From an uncultured Bacteroidota bacterium (GTDB lineage: Bacteria; Bacteroidota; Bacteroidia; Flavobacteriales; Flavobacteriaceae): a stretch of 64,000 nt of DNA. The stretch covers positions 1 to 64,000 of the forward strand of contig CACJRP010000005.1 of the NCBI GenBank assembly GCA_902595825.1, given 5' to 3'. Below the pieces are notes generated by a model. It saw only the letters and a program-made list of their open reading frames with translations, was not told the DNA's origin and made no database searches. This document shows positions 3,152-13,233 of the stretch, piece by piece (the stretch's first letter is position 1; each line of letters opens with the position of its first letter). The position numbers and the translations under genes were made by a program.

Positions 3152-4771
3152 TCACAAAAGTATTTTTATTGGGTTTTCAACAAGGTCTTTTAGTGTCTGT
3201 AAGAATTTTGAACCAGATGCACCATCTATGGTCCTGTGGTCGCAGGCTAGAGTTAATTTCATTGTGTTTGAAATTACAATCTTATCTTTTTTTACAACTG
3301 GTTTTTGTATTATACTCCCAACCGATAAAATAGCAGAGTTGGGTTGGTTTATAATTGATGTGAAAGACTCAATACCGAACATACCTAGATTGGAAATGGT
3401 AAATGTACTCCCTTCAATTTCATTTTGTAGCAATTTTTTTTCTTGAGCCCTACTCGCAAAATCCTTAACTTTTAATCCAATTTCATTTAAATTTAAGTTA
3501 TCGGCAAATTTTAAAACGGGAACAACTAATCCGTCTTCTACTGCTACAGCGACCCCGATATTAACATGTTTATGCTGAATTGTTTCATTTTCACTCCATT
3601 GGCTATTTACCGCAGGATGAACATTTAGAGAAAGAGCAGTAGCTTTAATTATTAAATCATTATATGAAATTTTTGTTTCTGTCTGCGAGTTGTATTGCTC
3701 TCGAAATGAAATAAGGTTGTCAACATTATATTCAACATTTAAATAGTAATGCGGAGCAGAAAATTTTGAATCTGATAGCCTTTTAGCGATTGTTTTGCGT
3801 ATTTGAGAGTTCTGAATCTGAATACTGGATTCTTTTTTCAATTTATCATTAGGCTGTTGAGGAGGCGTATAATTCTCGATATCTCTTTTAATAATTCTTC
3901 CCCCATCGCCTGTACCAACTAGATCATTTAGCAAAATTCCCTTTTCAGATGCCATTTTTTTTGCCAAGGGAGAAACAAAAATTCTATCAGATTGAGAGTT
4001 TGCAGATTTAATTTTAGATTCATTTATATTAGAAACAACATTTAAATCATTACTGTTTTTTGAAGAAATATTTTCTTGTTGGGGTATTTCATTCTTAATT
4101 TCATTTTCTTCAATTTTATCTTTTTGACCAATAGAGTTTAAGGCTTTTTCAACATCAACATTTTCGTCACCAATTATTGCTAGAACTTCGTCAATTAGGG
4201 CAGATTTTCCTTCTTCAATACCGATATGAATTAAAGTTCCATTATAAAAAGACTCAAATTCCATTGTTGCTTTGTCGGTTTCAATTTCAGCTATAATGTC
4301 ACCTTCTTTAACTTTGTCACCAACTTTTTTAAGCCATGATGACACTGTTCCCTCTTCCATTGTATCGCTTAGGCGGGGCATTTTAACAACTTCAAAGTTG
4401 TTTTGATTTTTTTCCTCTAAAGTTGTATCCTTTTCTTCAATTTTCTCTTCTTCAAATTTTTTATCGTGAGAATTTGTGTTATTTTTTTTTGGCTTTGAGT
4501 CATGTTTATCAACGTAGGCTGTAATGTCTTCATCTTTATGTCCAATAATAGCAAGCATAGAGTCTACAGGAACTGTTTTACCGGCTTCTACACCAATATA
4601 AAGCAACTCACCAGAATAAAAAGACTCAAACTCCATTGTAGCTTTATCAGTTTCAATTTCTGCTAAAATATCACCTTCATTAATTTGGTCTCCTACTTTC
4701 TTTAACCATGATGAAACTGTTCCTTCCTCCATGGTATCGCTGAGTCTGGGCATATTTATAATCTCGGCCAT
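3152..4771 (-). CDS. pdhC: Pyruvate dehydrogenase E2, dihydrolipoamide acetyltransferase
   Basis: Core of the pyruvate dehydrogenase complex; transfers the acetyl group from lipoyl-lysine to CoA. The 539 residues show two tandem lipoyl domains, each with ETDKATMEFESF carrying the lipoylated Lys (near residues 43 and 170), charged flexible linkers, an E1/E3-binding domain around residues 265-300 (SPLAKKMASEKG, GTGDGGRI), and a catalytic domain ending with the HRTIDG active-site motif near residue 510. The two lipoyl domains share an identical stretch of about 20 residues at their starts, also visible as a DNA repeat. The start lies 4 bases after pdhA. E3 and E1-beta are not in the window. Confidence 0.96.
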   Translation of the reverse strand: MAEIINMPRLSDTMEEGTVSSWLKKVGDQINEGDILAEIETDKATMEFESFYSGELLYIGVEAGKTVPVDSMLAIIGHKDEDITAYVDKHDSKPKKNNTNSHDKKFEEEKIEEKDTTLEEKNQNNFEVVKMPRLSDTMEEGTVSSWLKKVGDKVKEGDIIAEIETDKATMEFESFYNGTLIHIGIEEGKSALIDEVLAIIGDENVDVEKALNSIGQKDKIEENEIKNEIPQQENISSKNSNDLNVVSNINESKIKSANSQSDRIFVSPLAKKMASEKGILLNDLVGTGDGGRIIKRDIENYTPPQQPNDKLKKESSIQIQNSQIRKTIAKRLSDSKFSAPHYYLNVEYNVDNLISFREQYNSQTETKISYNDLIIKATALSLNVHPAVNSQWSENETIQHKHVNIGVAVAVEDGLVVPVLKFADNLNLNEIGLKVKDFASRAQEKKLLQNEIEGSTFTISNLGMFGIESFTSIINQPNSAILSVGSIIQKPVVKKDKIVISNTMKLTLACDHRTIDGASGSKFLQTLKDLVENPIKILL

Positions 4772-4774
4772 GAT

Positions 4775-5776
4775 TTATTTTAATTTGTGATTTAAAAAAG
4801 GATAATTTGGTTCCTCATAAACAGCATCATACATTATGGAAACATCTGGGTAAGGTGATTCTTCAGCAAATTTTTCACACTCCAAAATTTGATTTCTAAC
4901 TCTTTCCTCAATGGAAGAGATTTCTTTGTTATTTAGATATTTTTTATCGACAATTATTTTTTTTACCTGTGTGATTGGGTCTATTTTTTTATATTCTTCT
5001 ACTTCAGATTTTGTCCTGTATTTTTGTGCATCTGACATAGAATGACCTCTATATCTATAAGTTTTCATTTCAATGAAAGAGGGACCTTCCCCTTTACGAG
5101 CATTTGAAATTGCTTTATCAAGGGCCTTAGCTACTATAACCGGGTTCATTCCATCAACAGGTTCACAGGGCATATTGTATCCTAACCCTAATTTCCAAAT
5201 TTCTTCATGATTAGCTGTTCTAGCAACTGAAGTTCCCATCGCATACCCATTGTTTTCAACAATAAAAACAACGGGCAATTTCCATAAAGCTGCCAAATTC
5301 AATGTTTCATGTAGAGACCCCTGCCTCACGGCACCATCACCCATAAAACAAAGAGTTACGCAATCTCTTTCATGATATTTGTCTCCAAATGCCATTCCTG
5401 CTCCAAGGGGTATTTGACCTCCAACTATTCCGTGGCCACCATGAAATCGAAACTCTTTTGAAAAAATATGCATAGATCCTCCCAAACCTGATGAAGTTCC
5501 TGTTGCCTTTCCGTAAAGTTCAGCCATAACTCTCTTCGGATCTACCCCCATACCTATTGGTTGAACATGGTTTCGGTAGGCTGTAATAATTCTATCCTTC
5601 CCAATTTCCATAGCATGGAGTGCACCAGCTAAAATTGCTTCTTGACCATTATATAGATGAAGAAACCCTCTAACTTTTTGCTGAATATAGACGGCTGCCA
5701 ACTTGTCTTCAAACTTTCTCCAGAAAAGCATATTTTCGAACCAGTTAATGTATGTATCCTTTGTTATTTTTTTCAT
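4775..5776 (-). CDS. pdhA: Pyruvate dehydrogenase E1 component, alpha subunit
   Basis: Thiamine-diphosphate-dependent decarboxylase subunit of the pyruvate dehydrogenase complex. The 333-residue length is typical. The ThDP motif runs from GDGAVRQGS to VENNGYAMGT (about residues 165-200). It also has the alpha-subunit motif RYRGHSMSD and the early segment GQEAI. The beta subunit is not adjacent, as is usual in flavobacteria. The gene is followed 4 bases later by pdhC, forming a short operon. A Bacteroidota-type promoter candidate lies immediately upstream (5811-5843), so the pair can be transcribed independently of porV. Confidence 0.96.
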   Translation of the reverse strand: MKKITKDTYINWFENMLFWRKFEDKLAAVYIQQKVRGFLHLYNGQEAILAGALHAMEIGKDRIITAYRNHVQPIGMGVDPKRVMAELYGKATGTSSGLGGSMHIFSKEFRFHGGHGIVGGQIPLGAGMAFGDKYHERDCVTLCFMGDGAVRQGSLHETLNLAALWKLPVVFIVENNGYAMGTSVARTANHEEIWKLGLGYNMPCEPVDGMNPVIVAKALDKAISNARKGEGPSFIEMKTYRYRGHSMSDAQKYRTKSEVEEYKKIDPITQVKKIIVDKKYLNNKEISSIEERVRNQILECEKFAEESPYPDVSIMYDAVYEEPNYPFLNHKLK

Positions 5777-5810
5777 TTTAAAAAAAAATATGTATTATTA
5801 AAATTGACCT

Positions 5811-5843
5811 CAAAAATACCATTTTTTAAACAAAAATTATCAA
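5811..5843 (-). promoter_or_regulatory. Candidate Bacteroidota promoter for pdhA-pdhC
   Basis: On the minus strand, TTG (5843-5841) is followed after 22 bases by TATTTTTG (5818-5811), matching the Bacteroidota consensus TTG / TAnnTTTG. The pdhA ATG at 5776 would sit about 30 bases past the predicted start of transcription. The spacing is slightly longer than ideal and such motifs also arise by chance in AT-rich DNA. Confidence 0.45.
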
Positions 5844-5864
5844 GTTATCGATTGTAAAAACCAA

Positions 5865-7049
5865 TTACTTATTACTGATTTCTTCCTTGGTTTCCTCAAT
5901 TTCAATATTTTGAGTGCTCAATGGTAATGTTATAGAAAAACGTAGAGTATTTTCTAGAGGATTTCGAATTTTTGAGGTTGAGAATAAGTATGAAATATCA
6001 ATTTTAGCAAAATCGATACTAAAACCTGCACCTAGCGTTAAAAATCTCCTTGAACCCTTTTCCAAACTTTCATTAAAATACCCTGTCCTTAATGCAAATG
6101 ATTTTTGAAATTCATACTCTATTCCAAAAGCCCATGTTACTTCTTTCAACTCTTCACTAAACCCCCCTGGGGCATCTGTAAATGATTCAAAAATCCCTTT
6201 TATAAAACTTATATCAGGCTGTTGATAACCTATAAAAGTCTCGTCTTTGTAAGTTGCTACTGGAGAAGGAACTAAAAGCTTGTTAAGTTCTAAGTTAAAA
6301 CTTAAAATATTAACTTCATCCATAATTATGTCCAAACTAGAACCAACTTTTATATTTGTCGGAATAAAGTTTTTTTGACCACCTTCATCGTATTTTAATC
6401 TAGGACCAATGTTTGATACATTAAATCCATGTCTAAATCTGGCAACCCTTTTTTTGAATTTAAAAGTTTTTCCAATGTAAAAACCAGAAATATCGATCCC
6501 AATAGAACTTGCAGGGGTTGGATCGGCGTCACTTGATAATTTTAAATCCGATCTTATGTATCTAGCTGCAACTGCCATTGAAAAAGATTGGTTTAGTTTC
6601 AAACCATAAGATGCGTCAAGAGTTAGTTCATTTGGTCTTTCAATTCCCTGTTGAACGATGGTGTTACCTATCAAATCGTTGAATTGGATATCTCCCAAAC
6701 TAAAATATTTTAAACTGAATCCCCACGCACTTCTATCATTCTTTTTAAGAGAATATGTGATATTAGCTAAAAAAATATCATTAACTAACTTACTTAAATA
6801 GGGAGTATAACTTAGTCCAATTTCTTTTCCTTTTTCAGAGAATACGTATTTGGATGGATTCCATTGCTGCGAAAAAACATCTGGAGATGTAGCTACACCT
6901 AGTTCCCCCATACCTGCTGATCTAGCGTCGGGTGAAATCAGTAAAAAGGGAACACCTGTAGTAATTACTCTACTATTATTTTGGGGATAAAGATTGATTT
7001 TTATTAAAGAAAAAATAAAAACTACACAAAATTTTTTGGTGAATGACAA
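5865..7049 (-). CDS. porV: Type IX secretion system outer membrane protein PorV
   Basis: Outer-membrane beta-barrel of the FadL-like type that shuttles T9SS cargo to the attachment complex. The 394 residues begin with a short hydrophobic signal (residues about 5-22). The PorV hallmark segment follows: TTGVPFLLISPDARSAGMGE, then QQWNPSKY. The rest alternates in barrel style and ends in an acidic tail. The start is TTG at 7049: an in-frame TAA lies directly upstream and no ATG precedes the mature protein. The sortase gene porU, next to porV in Flavobacterium johnsoniae as I recall, is absent here; the divergent neighbour is gldJ. The family call is firm. Confidence 0.92.
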   Translation of the reverse strand: MSFTKKFCVVFIFSLIKINLYPQNNSRVITTGVPFLLISPDARSAGMGELGVATSPDVFSQQWNPSKYVFSEKGKEIGLSYTPYLSKLVNDIFLANITYSLKKNDRSAWGFSLKYFSLGDIQFNDLIGNTIVQQGIERPNELTLDASYGLKLNQSFSMAVAARYIRSDLKLSSDADPTPASSIGIDISGFYIGKTFKFKKRVARFRHGFNVSNIGPRLKYDEGGQKNFIPTNIKVGSSLDIIMDEVNILSFNLELNKLLVPSPVATYKDETFIGYQQPDISFIKGIFESFTDAPGGFSEELKEVTWAFGIEYEFQKSFALRTGYFNESLEKGSRRFLTLGAGFSIDFAKIDISYLFSTSKIRNPLENTLRFSITLPLSTQNIEIEETKEEISNK

Positions 7050-7154
7050 TTATTAATGTTTTTTTAATATAACGTATTAGAATAGAAAATCTTATAAAAT
7101 CGTTTGTTCTTATCCATTATAACAATAATATTTGTCAAATTTTTTCGTTATAAG

Positions 7155-7186
7155 TTGCAAAAGGAAAAAAAACTTAAATAATTTTG
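7155..7186 (+). promoter_or_regulatory. Candidate Bacteroidota promoter for gldJ
   Basis: TTG at 7155-7157 and TAATTTTG at 7179-7186, spaced 21 bases, match the Bacteroidota -33/-7 consensus. Transcription would begin near 7192, after the in-frame ATG at 7188. This supports translation of gldJ from the ATG at 7227. Confidence 0.55.
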
Positions 7187-7226
7187 CATGAATAAGTTGT
7201 ATATTGCGAAAAATAAGAATTTCAGA

Positions 7227-8927
7227 ATGAAAAAATTTTCTAATTCAAAAATATTAGAAATTCGATTTTTAGTTCTAACTATTTCTATACTCATTTTATC
7301 ATGTGGCAAAAATAATGCTTCTAGAGCTACTGGTTGGGATATTAATTCCAAGAAAGGAGGTTTTCAATATAATATTGATTATGAAGACCAAGAAACAGGT
7401 CCAGGGCTTGTATTTATAGAAGGTGGAACATTTACGAAGGGCCAAGTTCAAGATGATGTTTTACATGATTGGAATAATACACCAACTAGACAGCATGTTA
7501 TGTCGTTCTATATTGACGAAACCGAGGTAACTAATATTATGTATTTAGAATATCTTGATTGGCTAAAAATGGTTTTTCCTCAAGACAATCCTCAATATAA
7601 ACAAATTTATGAAGGTGCCCTCCCAGACACATTAGTTTGGAGAAATCAACTTGGATATGTAGAAGAGTTAACAACAAATTATTTGAGACACCCTGCTTAT
7701 GCTGAATATCCAGTGGTAGGAGTAAATTGGTTACAAGCAGTCCAATTCGCTGAGTGGAGAACGGATAGAGTAAATGAATTTATTTTAGAAAGAGAAGCGT
7801 ATATAGAAAAAGATGTTCGTTATGGTGTTAATCAAGTTGAAGGAGGTCAAGTAGATGCAAACAGTACCTTTAACACGAGGGCATATCAAAAAAATCCTTC
7901 TGCGACTTATGGTGGGAAAATTGACAGTATTGCCGGTAAAAAAGGGAAAATTAAAGACACAATTAGTGTATATGCAGGCGTAGATAAAGGATTACTTTTA
8001 CCATCATATAGACTTCCAACCGAGACAGAATGGGAATATGCTGCGTTGGCATTGGTTGGAGATAGAGCATATAATGCTTACCGAGGCAAAAAGAAGTATC
8101 CTTGGAGTGGTGAATACACTAGGTCTAGCGACAGAAGAACTGAAGGAGATCAACTTGCAAACTTTAAACTGGGTGAAGGTGATTATGGCGGAATTGCCGG
8201 TTGGTCTGATGATGGTGCTGACATCACAATACAAGTAAAAGCATATCCACCAAATGATTTTGGTGTATATGATATGGCAGGTAATGTTGCAGAATGGGTC
8301 TCTGATGTTTATAGACCTATTGTTGATGACGAAGCAAATGATTTTAATTATTACAGAGGTAATGTTTATTTAAAAGAAATTATAGGACCCGACGGAAAGG
8401 CTGAAATAATTCAACCTGACCAATTAGTTTACGATACTCTTCCTAATGGAAAAGTTCTTCTGAAAAGAATTCCTGGTCAACTGAAACAAGTTCCTATTGA
8501 CGAAGAGGAAACATTTTTGAGACAAAATTTTACCGAAAGTGATAATAGAAATTTTAGGGACGGTGACATTGAATCAACTCGTCAATTTGCTGGTCAACTT
8601 GGTTCTGACGAAGGTCCAGGTGATGGAAGACCAGAATCGACTAAAATGTATGATGCACCAACTCACCCTAAAGTAACGAAAGATCAAGACGGTAATATTA
8701 TAAGGTCAAAAGATAAATCAATTAAAAGAACTTCGCTGATAACTGATGAAGTAAGAGTATACAAAGGTGGATCATGGAAGGATCGTGCATACTGGCTTGA
8801 CCCTGCGCAAAGAAGATATTTACCTCAATATATAGCTACTGACTATATTGGATTTAGATGTGCAATGACTAGGCTTGGGTCTAAAAGCAAAAAAAAGAAA
8901 TCAGCTCGACATAAAAGAAGAGGATAA
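7227..8927 (+). CDS. gldJ: Gliding motility lipoprotein GldJ
   Basis: Outer-membrane-associated lipoprotein required in Flavobacterium for gliding and for T9SS function. The 566 residues start with a lipoprotein signal whose lipobox ends ILSC, followed by the GldJ-typical ATGWDINSKKGGFQYN. The body is a formylglycine-generating-enzyme (SUMF1) fold: FIEGGTF, DETEVTN, VVGVNWLQAVQFAEW, RLPTETEWEYAA, DMAGNVAEWVSD and the terminal KGGSWKDRAYW...GFRC. A long insertion precedes the last part. The C-terminus is a very basic tail (SKSKKKKSARHKRRG); in F. johnsoniae the extreme C-terminus of GldJ matters for motility rather than secretion. The ATG at 7227 is preferred over 7188 because the promoter candidate overlaps the latter. 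Confidence 0.94.
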   Translation: MKKFSNSKILEIRFLVLTISILILSCGKNNASRATGWDINSKKGGFQYNIDYEDQETGPGLVFIEGGTFTKGQVQDDVLHDWNNTPTRQHVMSFYIDETEVTNIMYLEYLDWLKMVFPQDNPQYKQIYEGALPDTLVWRNQLGYVEELTTNYLRHPAYAEYPVVGVNWLQAVQFAEWRTDRVNEFILEREAYIEKDVRYGVNQVEGGQVDANSTFNTRAYQKNPSATYGGKIDSIAGKKGKIKDTISVYAGVDKGLLLPSYRLPTETEWEYAALALVGDRAYNAYRGKKKYPWSGEYTRSSDRRTEGDQLANFKLGEGDYGGIAGWSDDGADITIQVKAYPPNDFGVYDMAGNVAEWVSDVYRPIVDDEANDFNYYRGNVYLKEIIGPDGKAEIIQPDQLVYDTLPNGKVLLKRIPGQLKQVPIDEEETFLRQNFTESDNRNFRDGDIESTRQFAGQLGSDEGPGDGRPESTKMYDAPTHPKVTKDQDGNIIRSKDKSIKRTSLITDEVRVYKGGSWKDRAYWLDPAQRRYLPQYIATDYIGFRCAMTRLGSKSKKKKSARHKRRG

Positions 8928-8953
8928 TTTAAATATTAAACCGTTTTTATGTT

Positions 8954-10240
8954 ATGAAAATAGATGACATATATTCTCTATTTTCGAGAAGCTCTGGGAT
9001 ATCGACCGACACTAGAACTATTAAAAGTAAAAACCTTTTCTTTTGTTTAAAGGGAAAAAACTTCAATGGAAACTTATTTATTGACCAAGCTATTAGTCTA
9101 GGAGCATCATTTGTAATATACGATGAAGAAAAACTTAACCATAAATCAAAAAGGGCTTTCAAAGTAAAAAATGCTTTAGAAACTTTACAAGCCTTGGCTA
9201 AACATCACAGATCAAAATTTAATATTCCGGTTATTGGTTTAACCGGTTCAAATGGAAAAACAACATCGAAAGAGCTAATCAATAGTGTCTTATCGCAAAA
9301 ATTTAATGTAACATATACTGCAAATAATTTCAATAATCATATTGGTGTTCCTTTAACTATTTTAAAAATAAACACAAAAACAGATATAGCAATAATCGAA
9401 ATGGGTGCAAATCAGTTAGGTGAAATTGATTTATTATGCAATATAGCAGATCCTACTATTGGTTATATAACAAATTTTGGAAAAGCCCACCTTGAAGGTT
9501 TTGGAGGCCTAAAGGGCGTTATAAAGGGCAAAAGTGAATTGTATGAGTATATAAGAAAAAGCAAAGGAGTTATTTTAGTCAACAACGATGACAGAATTCA
9601 AAGAGAAAAATCAAAAGGAATTAATACTTTTTCATTTGGTAAATCCAAAAAATCGAATTGTTTAATTTATAATACTACTTCCAATAAAGGTTTATGTGAG
9701 GCAAGGTTGAATGACAAAAAGATTCTAACAAATCTACATGGAGAATACAATTTTGAGAATATCAACGCATCTATAGCTGTGGGTATTCATTTTGGTCTAA
9801 GTTTTGAACAAATTGAGAACGGAATTAAATATTATGTCCCAAAAAATAACCGTTCAGAAATGTTAAAGACAAAAAGTAACCTACTTTTTATTGATTCATA
9901 CAACGCTAATCCGACCAGCATGAAAGTTTCAATCCAATCCTTTATGAAATTTAAAGAAGTTGAAAAAATCTTAATCCTTGGAGATATGCATGAAATTGGC
10001 AAAACTTCCTTGAATGAACATGAAAGAATATTAAATTCTGTTAAAAATAATAAAGACTTGAAAATTTTTCTTGTAGGAAAAATATTTAATCAACTTAAAT
10101 TTAACTCTGATAGAATCCATTTTTTTAAAGAAATTGATGAACTAATTGAATATTTTAAAAAAAATCTGGTTACAGGTCACACCATCTTTCTTAAAGGATC
10201 AAGAAAAATTAATTTAGAAAAGTTGATTCCCATACTTTAA
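8954..10240 (+). CDS. murF: UDP-N-acetylmuramoyl-tripeptide--D-alanyl-D-alanine ligase
   Basis: Cytoplasmic ATP-dependent ligase that adds D-Ala-D-Ala to the UDP-muramyl tripeptide, the last soluble step of peptidoglycan precursor synthesis. The 428 residues contain the early Mur motif STDTRTI, the P-loop GLTGSNGKTTSKE (about residues 94-106), EMGANQLGEID, NFGKAHLEGFGG and, in the C-terminal domain, DSYNANPTSM and LGDMHEIG. Its position directly after gldJ is conserved in flavobacteria. It starts at ATG 26 bases after gldJ and is probably cotranscribed. Confidence 0.95.
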   Translation: MKIDDIYSLFSRSSGISTDTRTIKSKNLFFCLKGKNFNGNLFIDQAISLGASFVIYDEEKLNHKSKRAFKVKNALETLQALAKHHRSKFNIPVIGLTGSNGKTTSKELINSVLSQKFNVTYTANNFNNHIGVPLTILKINTKTDIAIIEMGANQLGEIDLLCNIADPTIGYITNFGKAHLEGFGGLKGVIKGKSELYEYIRKSKGVILVNNDDRIQREKSKGINTFSFGKSKKSNCLIYNTTSNKGLCEARLNDKKILTNLHGEYNFENINASIAVGIHFGLSFEQIENGIKYYVPKNNRSEMLKTKSNLLFIDSYNANPTSMKVSIQSFMKFKEVEKILILGDMHEIGKTSLNEHERILNSVKNNKDLKIFLVGKIFNQLKFNSDRIHFFKEIDELIEYFKKNLVTGHTIFLKGSRKINLEKLIPIL

Positions 10241-10372
10241 CTAAAGTATAAATTCATAAAGGATTACTGCAGTTAAAATTCCTTCTAAATAGGCAATAAG
10301 AGCTATGTCGTATGTGGTTAAATTAAATTTTTCCATAACTATTTTCATTATTTTCTTGTGCCAGTTTAACAT
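10241..10372 (-). CDS. Small putative membrane protein (43 aa)
   Basis: Short ORF from ATG at 10372 to TAG at 10241, filling the gap between murF and the lipid kinase gene exactly. The 43 residues have a basic, amphipathic N-terminus (MLNWHKKIMKIVMEKFN) and one hydrophobic stretch (IALIAYLEGILTAVILYEF), compatible with a single membrane-spanning helix. Its 3' end abuts the murF stop. I do not recognise the family. Support is the tight fit in an otherwise unexplained interval and the sensible topology; it could still be a chance ORF. Confidence 0.5.
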   Translation of the reverse strand: MLNWHKKIMKIVMEKFNLTTYDIALIAYLEGILTAVILYEFIL

Positions 10373-10405
10373 TTTAAAATTAAAATTTTAGATTTTAATT
10401 TTAAA
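10373..10405. repeat. AT-only inverted repeat between the lipid kinase gene and the small ORF
   Basis: Near-perfect inverted repeat: arms TTTAAAATTAAAAT (10373-10386) and ATTTTAATTTTAAA (10392-10405) around a 5-base loop. On the minus strand it follows the stop of the lipid kinase gene and directly precedes the small ORF start. With no G or C in the stem it would be a weak terminator at best; a processing or regulatory role is possible. Confidence 0.5.
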
Positions 10406-10410
10406 GTTAA

Positions 10411-11292
10411 TTAATTAGGAGTAATAAGTTGGAGTGTTTTTTTAATCGATTTAATTTTATAAACACCACGATTTACATTCAAACTCTCACCATCTATTTG
10501 AATATTTTTAATGGGCTTCTGTAGAGTTATGTTTAAATTTTCAATTTTTTTATAATTACTTTCTCCAGGAGAAAAATTTAAACCAAAAATAATTTTGAAT
10601 ATGTTTATAATATTTTTAAAGTAAGAGATATTTTCAACAATTAACATATCTAACATACCATCATCGGTTTTTGCCTGTGGAGTAACTGTGAAATTATAGC
10701 CTTGTTGATTTGTATTTGACACAATTAAAATTAATGCAGAACTAGTGATTCTTTCACCGTTAGTATCAATAATAAATTGTTTTTCTTTTATACTGAAAAT
10801 TGTTTTTATAAATGCTAAGAAATAACCGACTAATCCTTTATATTTAATTTTGTGGTAATTTTTAATAAAATCGGCACCTATCCCAAAAGCAACGTTTCCT
10901 AAAAAAACAGATTCATTTACTTTTCCTATATCTACATAGGTATAATTATGTCTTAAAATTAAGTCTAGTGATTTGGAAATATCTAGAGGAATATTAAAAT
11001 GCCTTGCAATCCCGTTCCCAGACCCTATTGGGACTATTGCAATTTTAAATTCTTTCTCTTTAATCTCATTTAGAATTTCGTTTATAGTACCATCTCCTCC
11101 ACATGCGACAATCAAATCTGTTTTGTTAAGAACGGCTTCTCTGGCTAATGTTTTCGTTTCTCCTTTAAAACTTGACTGACTAATTTTGACCTGATACTTG
11201 TTTTCATCAAATTTGATTCTAACTTGCTCTTTAATTCTCTTAGCAATTTTTGAGTTTGAAATTTTGATAATAAAGTGAATTTTTAATCTCAT
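10411..11292 (-). CDS. Diacylglycerol/lipid kinase (DagK/YegS family)
   Basis: Soluble or membrane-associated kinase that phosphorylates a lipid hydroxyl, typically diacylglycerol, with ATP. The 293 residues show the diagnostic nucleotide loop CGGDGTINEI (around residue 65), VPIGSGNGIARHF, and DIGKVN / FGIGADF in the second domain, then AKTDDGMLD. It begins directly at the stop of the LTA-synthase-like gene (ATG at 11292, upstream stop at 11293), so the two are cotranscribed. That pairing suggests it recycles diacylglycerol released by the neighbouring transferase, which is an inference. Confidence 0.88.
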   Translation of the reverse strand: MRLKIHFIIKISNSKIAKRIKEQVRIKFDENKYQVKISQSSFKGETKTLAREAVLNKTDLIVACGGDGTINEILNEIKEKEFKIAIVPIGSGNGIARHFNIPLDISKSLDLILRHNYTYVDIGKVNESVFLGNVAFGIGADFIKNYHKIKYKGLVGYFLAFIKTIFSIKEKQFIIDTNGERITSSALILIVSNTNQQGYNFTVTPQAKTDDGMLDMLIVENISYFKNIINIFKIIFGLNFSPGESNYKKIENLNITLQKPIKNIQIDGESLNVNRGVYKIKSIKKTLQLITPN

Positions 11293-13233
11293 CTACTTCA
11301 GATTATAATACATCTTATTATCACTGATTCTATTAAAATAATCTTGTAGAAATAAACCTGTTTTTTTTTCTAATCTCAGCATGTTCTGATTTTTATTTTG
11401 AATTAGATTTTCCTCGAGATTCAAATCAGATAAATTGTAAAACCCAATTGCTTTATTACCATCATAAATACAAATGAAGTTTTCATCCATCGATAAATAT
11501 GCACCTCCTCCAAAATAATTAATTGTAAATGCAGATTCATTTTTGGAAGACAATAGACTTCTTCCCCAACTCCTAAATGGCTTTTTATATCCTATAAGTT
11601 CGGCCACAGTTGGATATATATCTAGATGGCTGGCTAACCTGTCATCAACCCCTTTAAAGTCACCGTTTTTTTTATAAATAAGTAACGGCGTAGCAAATCT
11701 ATTTACAGTACTTTGATAGTATTCAAAATAAGACTGGTTTGTGTGATCGGAGGTGAAAATAAAAATAGTATTTTCAAACCAACTAGATTTTTCAATACTT
11801 TTAAAGAACTGTCTTATTGAATAATCAGTGTATCCAACACATTTGTGAATAGGAAGATATCCGTTGTCAAATATACCCTTAAATTTATCCGGAATTACAT
11901 AGGGCTCGTGAGAAGACAAGGTGAAAATAGTTGCCAAAAAAGGTTCGTTTTTATCATCTAAAATAGATTTTGAAAATTGTAGGAAAGGTTCATCCCAAAT
12001 TCCCCAAAAACCGTCGTATTCTTCATCATTATTAAATTCATCTCGTCCATAATAACTATCATATCCTAAGGTATTTGCAAAACCCTGAAATCCCATCGAA
12101 CCATTTTCTGCTCCATGCAAAAACGAGGTATTGTAACCTAAAGCATTGGAAATACTTACCAATGACTCTAATTTCTGTCTAGAATAATATGAAGAAGTAT
12201 ATGCTATTTCAAATGATGGAACACCTGCAAGAACTGAAGGCATAGCGTGAATTGACTTTCTACTTGTCGCAAATGCATTTGGGAATATTAAACTATGCTT
12301 GGATAACGAATCTAAAAATGGAGTAAAACTTTTAAAGTTTTTTATATTTCTATTTTTATTTAATTCTCCCCAATACTCTCTTCCCATACTTTCAATAATA
12401 AAAATGACTATATTAGGCTTTTTGACAACTTGTATTTCTTTATAATTTTTAATTGGTTTTAGTTGATTTGTTATTTCGGAATCATTAAATCGAGAAATCT
12501 TTTTAAAAGAGTTTTTACCCCATGTTCGAATTATTGTAAAAGTTGTATTCAATACTACATCCGAATGAACGGGTCTCGACAAATTGTCCATTGAATCTAT
12601 AAGTGTAATTGGTCTTGTACTTTTTTTAAAATCTCCTCCTCTAGCCATCATTACAATTAAGGCAGATGAAATAAGAATCCCAAAAATTGAACTGAGGTAA
12701 TAAATTTTATTGTTTTCAATTTTTTCTTCCTTTACTTTGACCAATTTATATAAACCAATCCAAATAAATAAAAAAAGAAAAAAAAGTAAGACTAGGTTTA
12801 AGTACTGAAATAAAAAATGAAAAATTAATTTCAGTTTGTTGTTTTCTTTAGAAATTGATTCTAAGAAATTTCCCATCATCCTATTTAAATTGAATCTATA
12901 ATATGCAAAATCAATAAAGTTTAGAATTAAAAAAAAACTGTTGGATATGAAGTATAGCAAAGTAGAAAAAAATTGGCGCTTCTTGAACCTTAAAAATGAT
13001 AAGGGAAGGACAGAAAAAAAAATGAAAAATAAATTCGAGTACGCTATTGCAGAGCAATCAAATCTTAAACCTAAAATACTTAGGGATAAAAAATTTTCTA
13101 AGTCTGAAACTTGAACTATATCGTTATTAAAAATAACAAATAAAACTCTTAAAAAAACATAAGCTATGTGGGCAAGAAGTATCCTATATATTAGTACGGA
13201 ATATTCTTTTAACCTCAAATCATTATATATCAT
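11293..13233 (-). CDS. LTA-synthase-like membrane sulfatase/phosphotransferase
   Basis: 646-residue inner-membrane protein with about five hydrophobic helices in the first 210 residues and a large extracytoplasmic alkaline-phosphatase-superfamily domain. Metal-site motifs are visible: PNIVIFIIESMGREYW, a likely nucleophile region FATSRKSIHAMPS, TLSSHEPYVIP, and FIFTSDHTNQ. Family members transfer glycerol-phosphate or phosphoethanolamine from phospholipids to glycans or lipoteichoic acid. A Gram-negative bacterium should not make LTA, so a periplasmic glycan or LPS substrate is more likely. Coupled to the downstream lipid kinase gene. The exact substrate is unknown. Confidence 0.87.
   Translation of the reverse strand: MIYNDLRLKEYSVLIYRILLAHIAYVFLRVLFVIFNNDIVQVSDLENFLSLSILGLRFDCSAIAYSNLFFIFFSVLPLSFLRFKKRQFFSTLLYFISNSFFLILNFIDFAYYRFNLNRMMGNFLESISKENNKLKLIFHFLFQYLNLVLLFFLFLFIWIGLYKLVKVKEEKIENNKIYYLSSIFGILISSALIVMMARGGDFKKSTRPITLIDSMDNLSRPVHSDVVLNTTFTIIRTWGKNSFKKISRFNDSEITNQLKPIKNYKEIQVVKKPNIVIFIIESMGREYWGELNKNRNIKNFKSFTPFLDSLSKHSLIFPNAFATSRKSIHAMPSVLAGVPSFEIAYTSSYYSRQKLESLVSISNALGYNTSFLHGAENGSMGFQGFANTLGYDSYYGRDEFNNDEEYDGFWGIWDEPFLQFSKSILDDKNEPFLATIFTLSSHEPYVIPDKFKGIFDNGYLPIHKCVGYTDYSIRQFFKSIEKSSWFENTIFIFTSDHTNQSYFEYYQSTVNRFATPLLIYKKNGDFKGVDDRLASHLDIYPTVAELIGYKKPFRSWGRSLLSSKNESAFTINYFGGGAYLSMDENFICIYDGNKAIGFYNLSDLNLEENLIQNKNQNMLRLEKKTGLFLQDYFNRISDNKMYYNLK

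Follow-up and report, generated by a model that had tools for sequence, protein, structure and literature searches.

The window analysed here, a stretch of 64,000 nucleotides from a marine flavobacterium, carries porV and gldJ side by side and in divergent orientation, flanked by the genes listed in Table 1. The products are identified as PorV (495 bits against the NF033710 equivalog cut-off of 250) and GldJ (829 bits against the TIGR03524 equivalog cut-off of 458), and no PorU profile match lies between them, in agreement with the first-pass annotation, which had described the two genes as adjacent and divergent with no porU between. That description compared the locus with Flavobacterium johnsoniae, where porU is presumably located between gldJ and porV. 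A PorU profile built in this study found no PorU remnant in the window's open frames of at least 25 residues, and our type A C-terminal domain (CTD) and lipoprotein profiles found no match in the same frames.

Table 1. Features of the porV-gldJ locus in the window
Feature	Position	Strand	Remark
Pyruvate dehydrogenase E2, conserved neighbour	3152..4771	-	TIGR01349; synteny
pdhA, directly beside porV with no cdd between	4775..5776	-	TIGR03182; synteny
porV, type A CTD shuttle and SprA partner	5865..7049	-	NF033710 equivalog; TTG start in the ORF list
Intergenic region, AT-rich, divergent	7050..7226		No PorU match; presumed place of porU in F. johnsoniae
gldJ, gliding lipoprotein	7188..8927	+	TIGR03524; ATG at 7227 most likely the true start
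murF, conserved neighbour 3' of gldJ	8954..10240	+	TIGR01143; synteny

The gldJ frame offers two starts: its first ATG (7188) is 138 bases from the porV TTG (7049), and the ATG at 7227, which is 177 bases from the same codon, opens a product (MKKFSNSK...) that reads as the start of a lipoprotein signal. A box resembling the motif TAnnTTTG is present in the sequence at 7179-7186 and favours the ATG at 7227, which is most likely the gldJ start. The gap of 177 bases given in the first-pass annotation is correct for this start.

We compared the 80 gldJ loci with the greatest similarity to that of the window, a selection that does not give a family-wide rate, and found porV beside gldJ, at most 691 bases apart and without porU, in 76 of them. 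These 76 include Maribacter, Zobellia, Robiginitalea, Muricauda/Flagellimonas, Arenibacter, Cellulophaga, Galbibacter, Leptobacterium, and Aquimarina pacifica, all assessed at the locus only. The other four loci have porU between porV and gldJ (L038; L091, Olleya; L092, Flavobacterium; L094, Altibacter), as do all 20 regions taken around PorU in genomes that encode it; the window and its PorU-encoding relatives share the same porV-(porU)-gldJ-murF neighbourhood. At one further locus, L121 (G177:C17:1000-20000, positions 4973-12909), two tandem PorU-like genes with open frames of 1300 and 1302 residues are located between gldJ and porV. The absence of cdd near pdhA, also pointed out in the first-pass annotation, was borne out for the window locus, where no cdd is found between pdhA and porV (5777-5864). 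Among the 80 loci, cdd was seen in 61 and was missing in 17 with both pdhA and porV in view (L022-L037, L040), while two loci were cut off there; it is also missing in the 1.7-Mb, PorU-encoding genome of L119.

The first-pass annotation left two outcomes for the sortase gene, moved or lost, and named an intact porU elsewhere as the sign of a simple rearrangement. No such gene turned up in the genome of the window, a 1.34-Mb assembly that is 67% complete, with either PF01364 (C25 peptidase) or the full PorU model NF033707. PF01364 was matched in none of the seven genomes of the window's genus and in 20 of the 40 genomes searched, which include these seven. With NF033707, too, none of the seven genus genomes, one of which is scored 100% complete, had a match that exceeded the cut-off; the sole weak match in the genus, in G001 (100% complete, 7% contaminated), covers the C-terminal domain only. 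Relocation of porU was ruled out on these searches of the genus, and the evidence, as far as profile matches can tell, favours loss. PorU over the NF033707 cut-off was found in 163 of 249 genomes of the family and not in the other 86. An absence peculiar to the window's genome was ruled out by these 86 genomes and by the 76 of 80 loci without porU, and judged from the same searches, the absence is a trait of the lineage, not a local rearrangement. According to the part of PMC7440613 consulted, which also compares the surroundings of gldJ, strains Aa_F7 and DN50 have already been published as lacking PorU and PorQ.

We next considered the partners of PorU in 80 genomes, namely 42 with no PorU over the cut-off (PorU-) and 38 with PorU (PorU+). 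The PorU- set consists of the seven genus genomes, 19 of those without any PorU match (49 more such genomes lie outside the set), and 16 with weak matches only; the PorU+ set was taken in list order from the 249-genome search, with G074 left out. PorQ exceeded the NF033711 cut-off in 38/38 PorU+ vs. 0/42 PorU- genomes, the genus's seven included. The N-terminal propeller of PorZ (PF21544) was matched in all 38 PorU+ genomes at 80 bits or more each and in one PorU- genome, marginally (G065, 28.5 bits with neighbours, cut-off 27, frame of 1004 residues); the seven genus genomes gave no match. On these profile data, the attachment module of PorU, PorQ, and PorZ is lost together. SprA exceeded its cut-off in all 80 genomes, including that of the window (G000), and type A CTDs (TIGR04183) are present in 38/38 PorU+ vs. 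41/42 PorU- genomes. Matches per genome range from 15 to at least 62 in the PorU+ set and from 0 to 33 in the PorU- set, with two to three in the genus. The first-pass annotation had suggested looking for CTD proteins in the rest of the genome, and TIGR04183 matches over the cut-off were indeed found at the C terminus of proteins in all seven genus genomes.

The PorQ search mostly matched three proteins in PorU+ genomes and one in PorU- genomes. A second match in G014 (L125, 2251-3480) is PorV2 (NF052325, 425 bits), and on this one identified protein PorV2 may have been lost along with PorU. In G043, which is 99% complete, SprA and a PorV/PorQ-like match are present, and no PorU, PorQ over the cut-off, PorZ, type A CTD, or coupled lipoprotein was found.

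A tree of five concatenated proteins with 95 tips, 22 of them PorU+, shows at least three switches in PorU state. One ancient loss, with a single PorU- clade, was rejected by an AU test on a thinned set of 55 of the 95 tips in which all 33 PorU- rows were constrained together (p 2e-43; 8e-5 without Aquimarina pacifica), with the caveat that long-branch attraction involving the window's clade may have distorted the tree.

Of the 16 type A matches in the genus, six are copies of a protease with about 1,280 residues, which in the window's genome is a reprolysin-like metalloprotease. A further six belong to an adhesin that reaches about 4,900 residues and is truncated by a contig end in two cases; three are small proteins, one scoring under the cut-off, and the last is a protein of 1,582 residues. 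The adhesin copy of G005 carries laminin-G and DUF285 domains. At L144 (2528-17317), a genome of about 1.8 Mb encodes an adhesin of 4930 residues with 12 DUF285 stretches, a domain whose name derives from mycoplasmas. Directly 3' of 12 of the 16 type A genes, with an overlap or a gap of a few bases, is a gene encoding an Fn3-like lipoprotein of about 230 residues, which follows all six proteases and all six adhesins; no lipoprotein gene was found behind the remaining four. Four of the 12 lipoproteins were found by profile and not by our first lipobox rule, and a Cys follows the signal there too.

In the forward direction, the 14 PorU- genomes examined have a lipoprotein gene behind 24 of 90 type A CTD genes, vs. 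2 of 68 for five PorU+ genomes (Fisher p 5e-5, uncorrected for kinship). These counts come from 90 of 129 PorU- and 70 of 95 PorU+ CTD matches examined, and exclude duplicates as well as uncoupled genes with the downstream side out of view. The pairing occurs in 13 of the 14 PorU- genomes and not in G013, and 66 of the 90 examined type A CTD genes in PorU- genomes are without a lipoprotein partner. In the reverse direction, with loci picked by their lipoprotein, a type A-like CTD is encoded upstream in 46/49 PorU- and 20/21 PorU+ cases; the exceptions are L360, L364, L372, and L349, and in the last of these no frame was found upstream. Of the PorU- places, 15 were already known through their CTD, 11 of them as profile seeds, and without these 15 the counts are 31/34 PorU- and 20/21 PorU+, together 51/55.

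Counted by genome, a full-length lipoprotein of at least 100 bits is present in 38/42 PorU- vs. 11/38 PorU+ genomes (hand count, uncorrected for kinship, at most 35 candidates scored per genome), a comparison that favours the PorU- group because the profile seeds all came from PorU- genomes. When the 14 seed-giving PorU- genomes are left out, the PorU- count is 24/28. Such a lipoprotein is absent in the PorU- genomes G013, G043, G228, and G236, three of which have type A CTDs. Restriction of the lipoprotein to PorU- genomes was considered and rejected, since 11 of the 38 PorU+ genomes carry one; for the same reason it is not a simple substitute for PorU.

The CTDs themselves also separate. When each CTD is compared with its closest counterpart from a different genome, that counterpart is coupled for 75 of 82 coupled CTDs (31 +/- 5 in shuffles) and for 14 of 134 uncoupled CTDs, and it is coupled for all 22 coupled CTDs from PorU+ genomes. 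By sequence similarity, coupled CTDs are a class of their own. Shared descent of the cargo, without any binding, could be the source of this class.

An alignment of 23 of the lipoproteins, from which two Fn3-like domains per protein were read, shows Cys, Trp, and Pro positions that never vary. In Pfam, fn3 alone matches the majority of members (21/23), a PDB search with the lipoprotein profile gave weak Fn3 matches only, and NCBIfam families match at most four of the 23. One of the latter, NF045617, is a putative periplasmic immunity lipoprotein family, with weak matches to three of the 23 (best E 1e-6), which would fit a periplasmic role. As described in the part of PMC5080379 consulted, surface lipoproteins carry an export signal (LES) of acidic residues after the Cys. 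PMC6414381 was set aside as a source on this signal, as the part consulted concerns another lipoprotein. Surface exposure of the family is not established, because an acidic start (at least two D/E at +2 to +8 after the Cys) was found in only 43 of 77 members, a set in which some lipobox calls are visibly wrong.

According to the standard model, as given in the parts of PMC10202324 and PMC12618676 consulted, PorV hands type A cargo to PorQ-PorU-PorZ. Compared with the T9SS of F. johnsoniae and Porphyromonas gingivalis, the window's lineage has type A CTD cargo along with PorV, SprA, and GldJ; of the PorV-PorU-PorQ-PorZ complex of those systems, PorU, PorQ, and PorZ were not found here, and cdd is absent at the locus. 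We tentatively propose, at somewhat under an even chance, that porU, porQ, and porZ have been lost, that the T9SS runs without its sortase module, and that a cognate lipoprotein replaces the anchoring. PorV would still pull type A cargo out of SprA, with no handover to PorU, the enzyme that otherwise cuts off the CTD and attaches the protein to A-LPS. The cargo would instead dock non-covalently on its cognate, co-translated lipoprotein and be held at the outer membrane, in parallel with the PorP/SprF-like partners proposed for type B cargo; cargo without a coupled lipoprotein would be released or stay on PorV. That cargo anchoring may differ, as stated in the first-pass annotation, is supported, though not proved, by PorQ and PorZ being absent together and by the lipoprotein coupled to cargo.

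A plain loss of a dispensable module, in which type A cargo is set free or stays on PorV while the lipoprotein serves some other purpose, for example as a periplasmic chaperone or as an inhibitor of its protease cargo, is possible, though we think it falls clearly short of probable. In the part of PMC7440613 consulted, Aa_F7 and DN50, which lack PorU and PorQ, form spreading colonies, and F. johnsoniae deletions are cited as being without effect on gliding; the members without an acidic run after the lipobox Cys and the three matches to NF045617 also agree with this reading. However, one lipoprotein family stands behind both the protease and the giant laminin-G/DUF285 adhesin, for which an inhibitor role fails, and the class formed by coupled CTDs points to the CTD as the common partner, though shared cargo descent could suffice. 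Replacement of PorU by an unrelated peptidase, with CTD cleavage and anchoring continuing as usual, would agree with the type A CTDs kept in 41/42 PorU- genomes, but seems unlikely because PorQ and PorZ of the attachment complex are missing too. That PorU is present elsewhere and was missed, because the window's assembly is 67% complete or the protein too divergent, is very improbable given that both PF01364 and NF033707 (over cut-off) scored 0/7 in the genus, where one genome is scored 100% complete, and that PorQ and PorZ were not found either.

Returning to the lipoprotein as anchor, a more general and more doubtful proposal is that a subclass of type A CTDs docks uncleaved on a dedicated, co-translated Fn3-like lipoprotein, which might have let several lineages of Flavobacteriaceae drop PorU, PorQ, and PorZ. 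The closest published case is that of Aa_F7 and DN50. In the part of PMC7440613 consulted, these strains likewise have no porU beside gldJ or elsewhere, show only weak PorQ matches, and possess the other gliding and T9SS proteins, as in the window's lineage; they are sponge isolates with genomes of 4.2 and 5.3 Mb, unlike the window's genome, and that part of the text mentions neither PorZ nor a cargo-coupled lipoprotein. Type B CTD cargo and its PorP/SprF-like shuttle, as treated in the parts of PMC12618676 and PMC9143113 consulted, similarly involve a linked outer-membrane partner that decides the final place of the cargo; that partner is a beta-barrel, whereas here a type A CTD is paired with an Fn3-like lipoprotein. 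The literature consulted, which mostly does not cover subscription papers, yielded no paper on PorZ loss in this clade and none on a pairing between type A cargo and a lipoprotein.

Type A secretion is accepted to end with PorU-catalysed attachment, yet of the Flavobacteriaceae genomes searched about one third (86/249) are without PorU over the cut-off. The lipoprotein family is a testable candidate for the surface retention of adhesins and proteases in PorU- cells, and it ties each coupled cargo to a single partner gene whose deletion is feasible in a laboratory strain. If true, this would be a further means by which Bacteroidota fix T9SS cargo at the surface.

Some type A CTD genes encode little besides the domain. 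Frames of at most 200 residues make up 23/90 type A CTD genes in PorU- genomes vs. 6/68 in PorU+ genomes. Among L148-L177 there are small CTD-only frames of about 100-150 residues (e.g., G091:C20, G184:C29, G108:C20, G056:C49, and G070:C1), several times as two in tandem about 450-500 bases apart. In the window's genome, a 153-residue type A CTD protein is encoded directly 5' of a SPOR-domain protein (L143, 687-2416; G000:C3). The same CTD/SPOR arrangement is present at L146, the domains having been scanned in L143 only.
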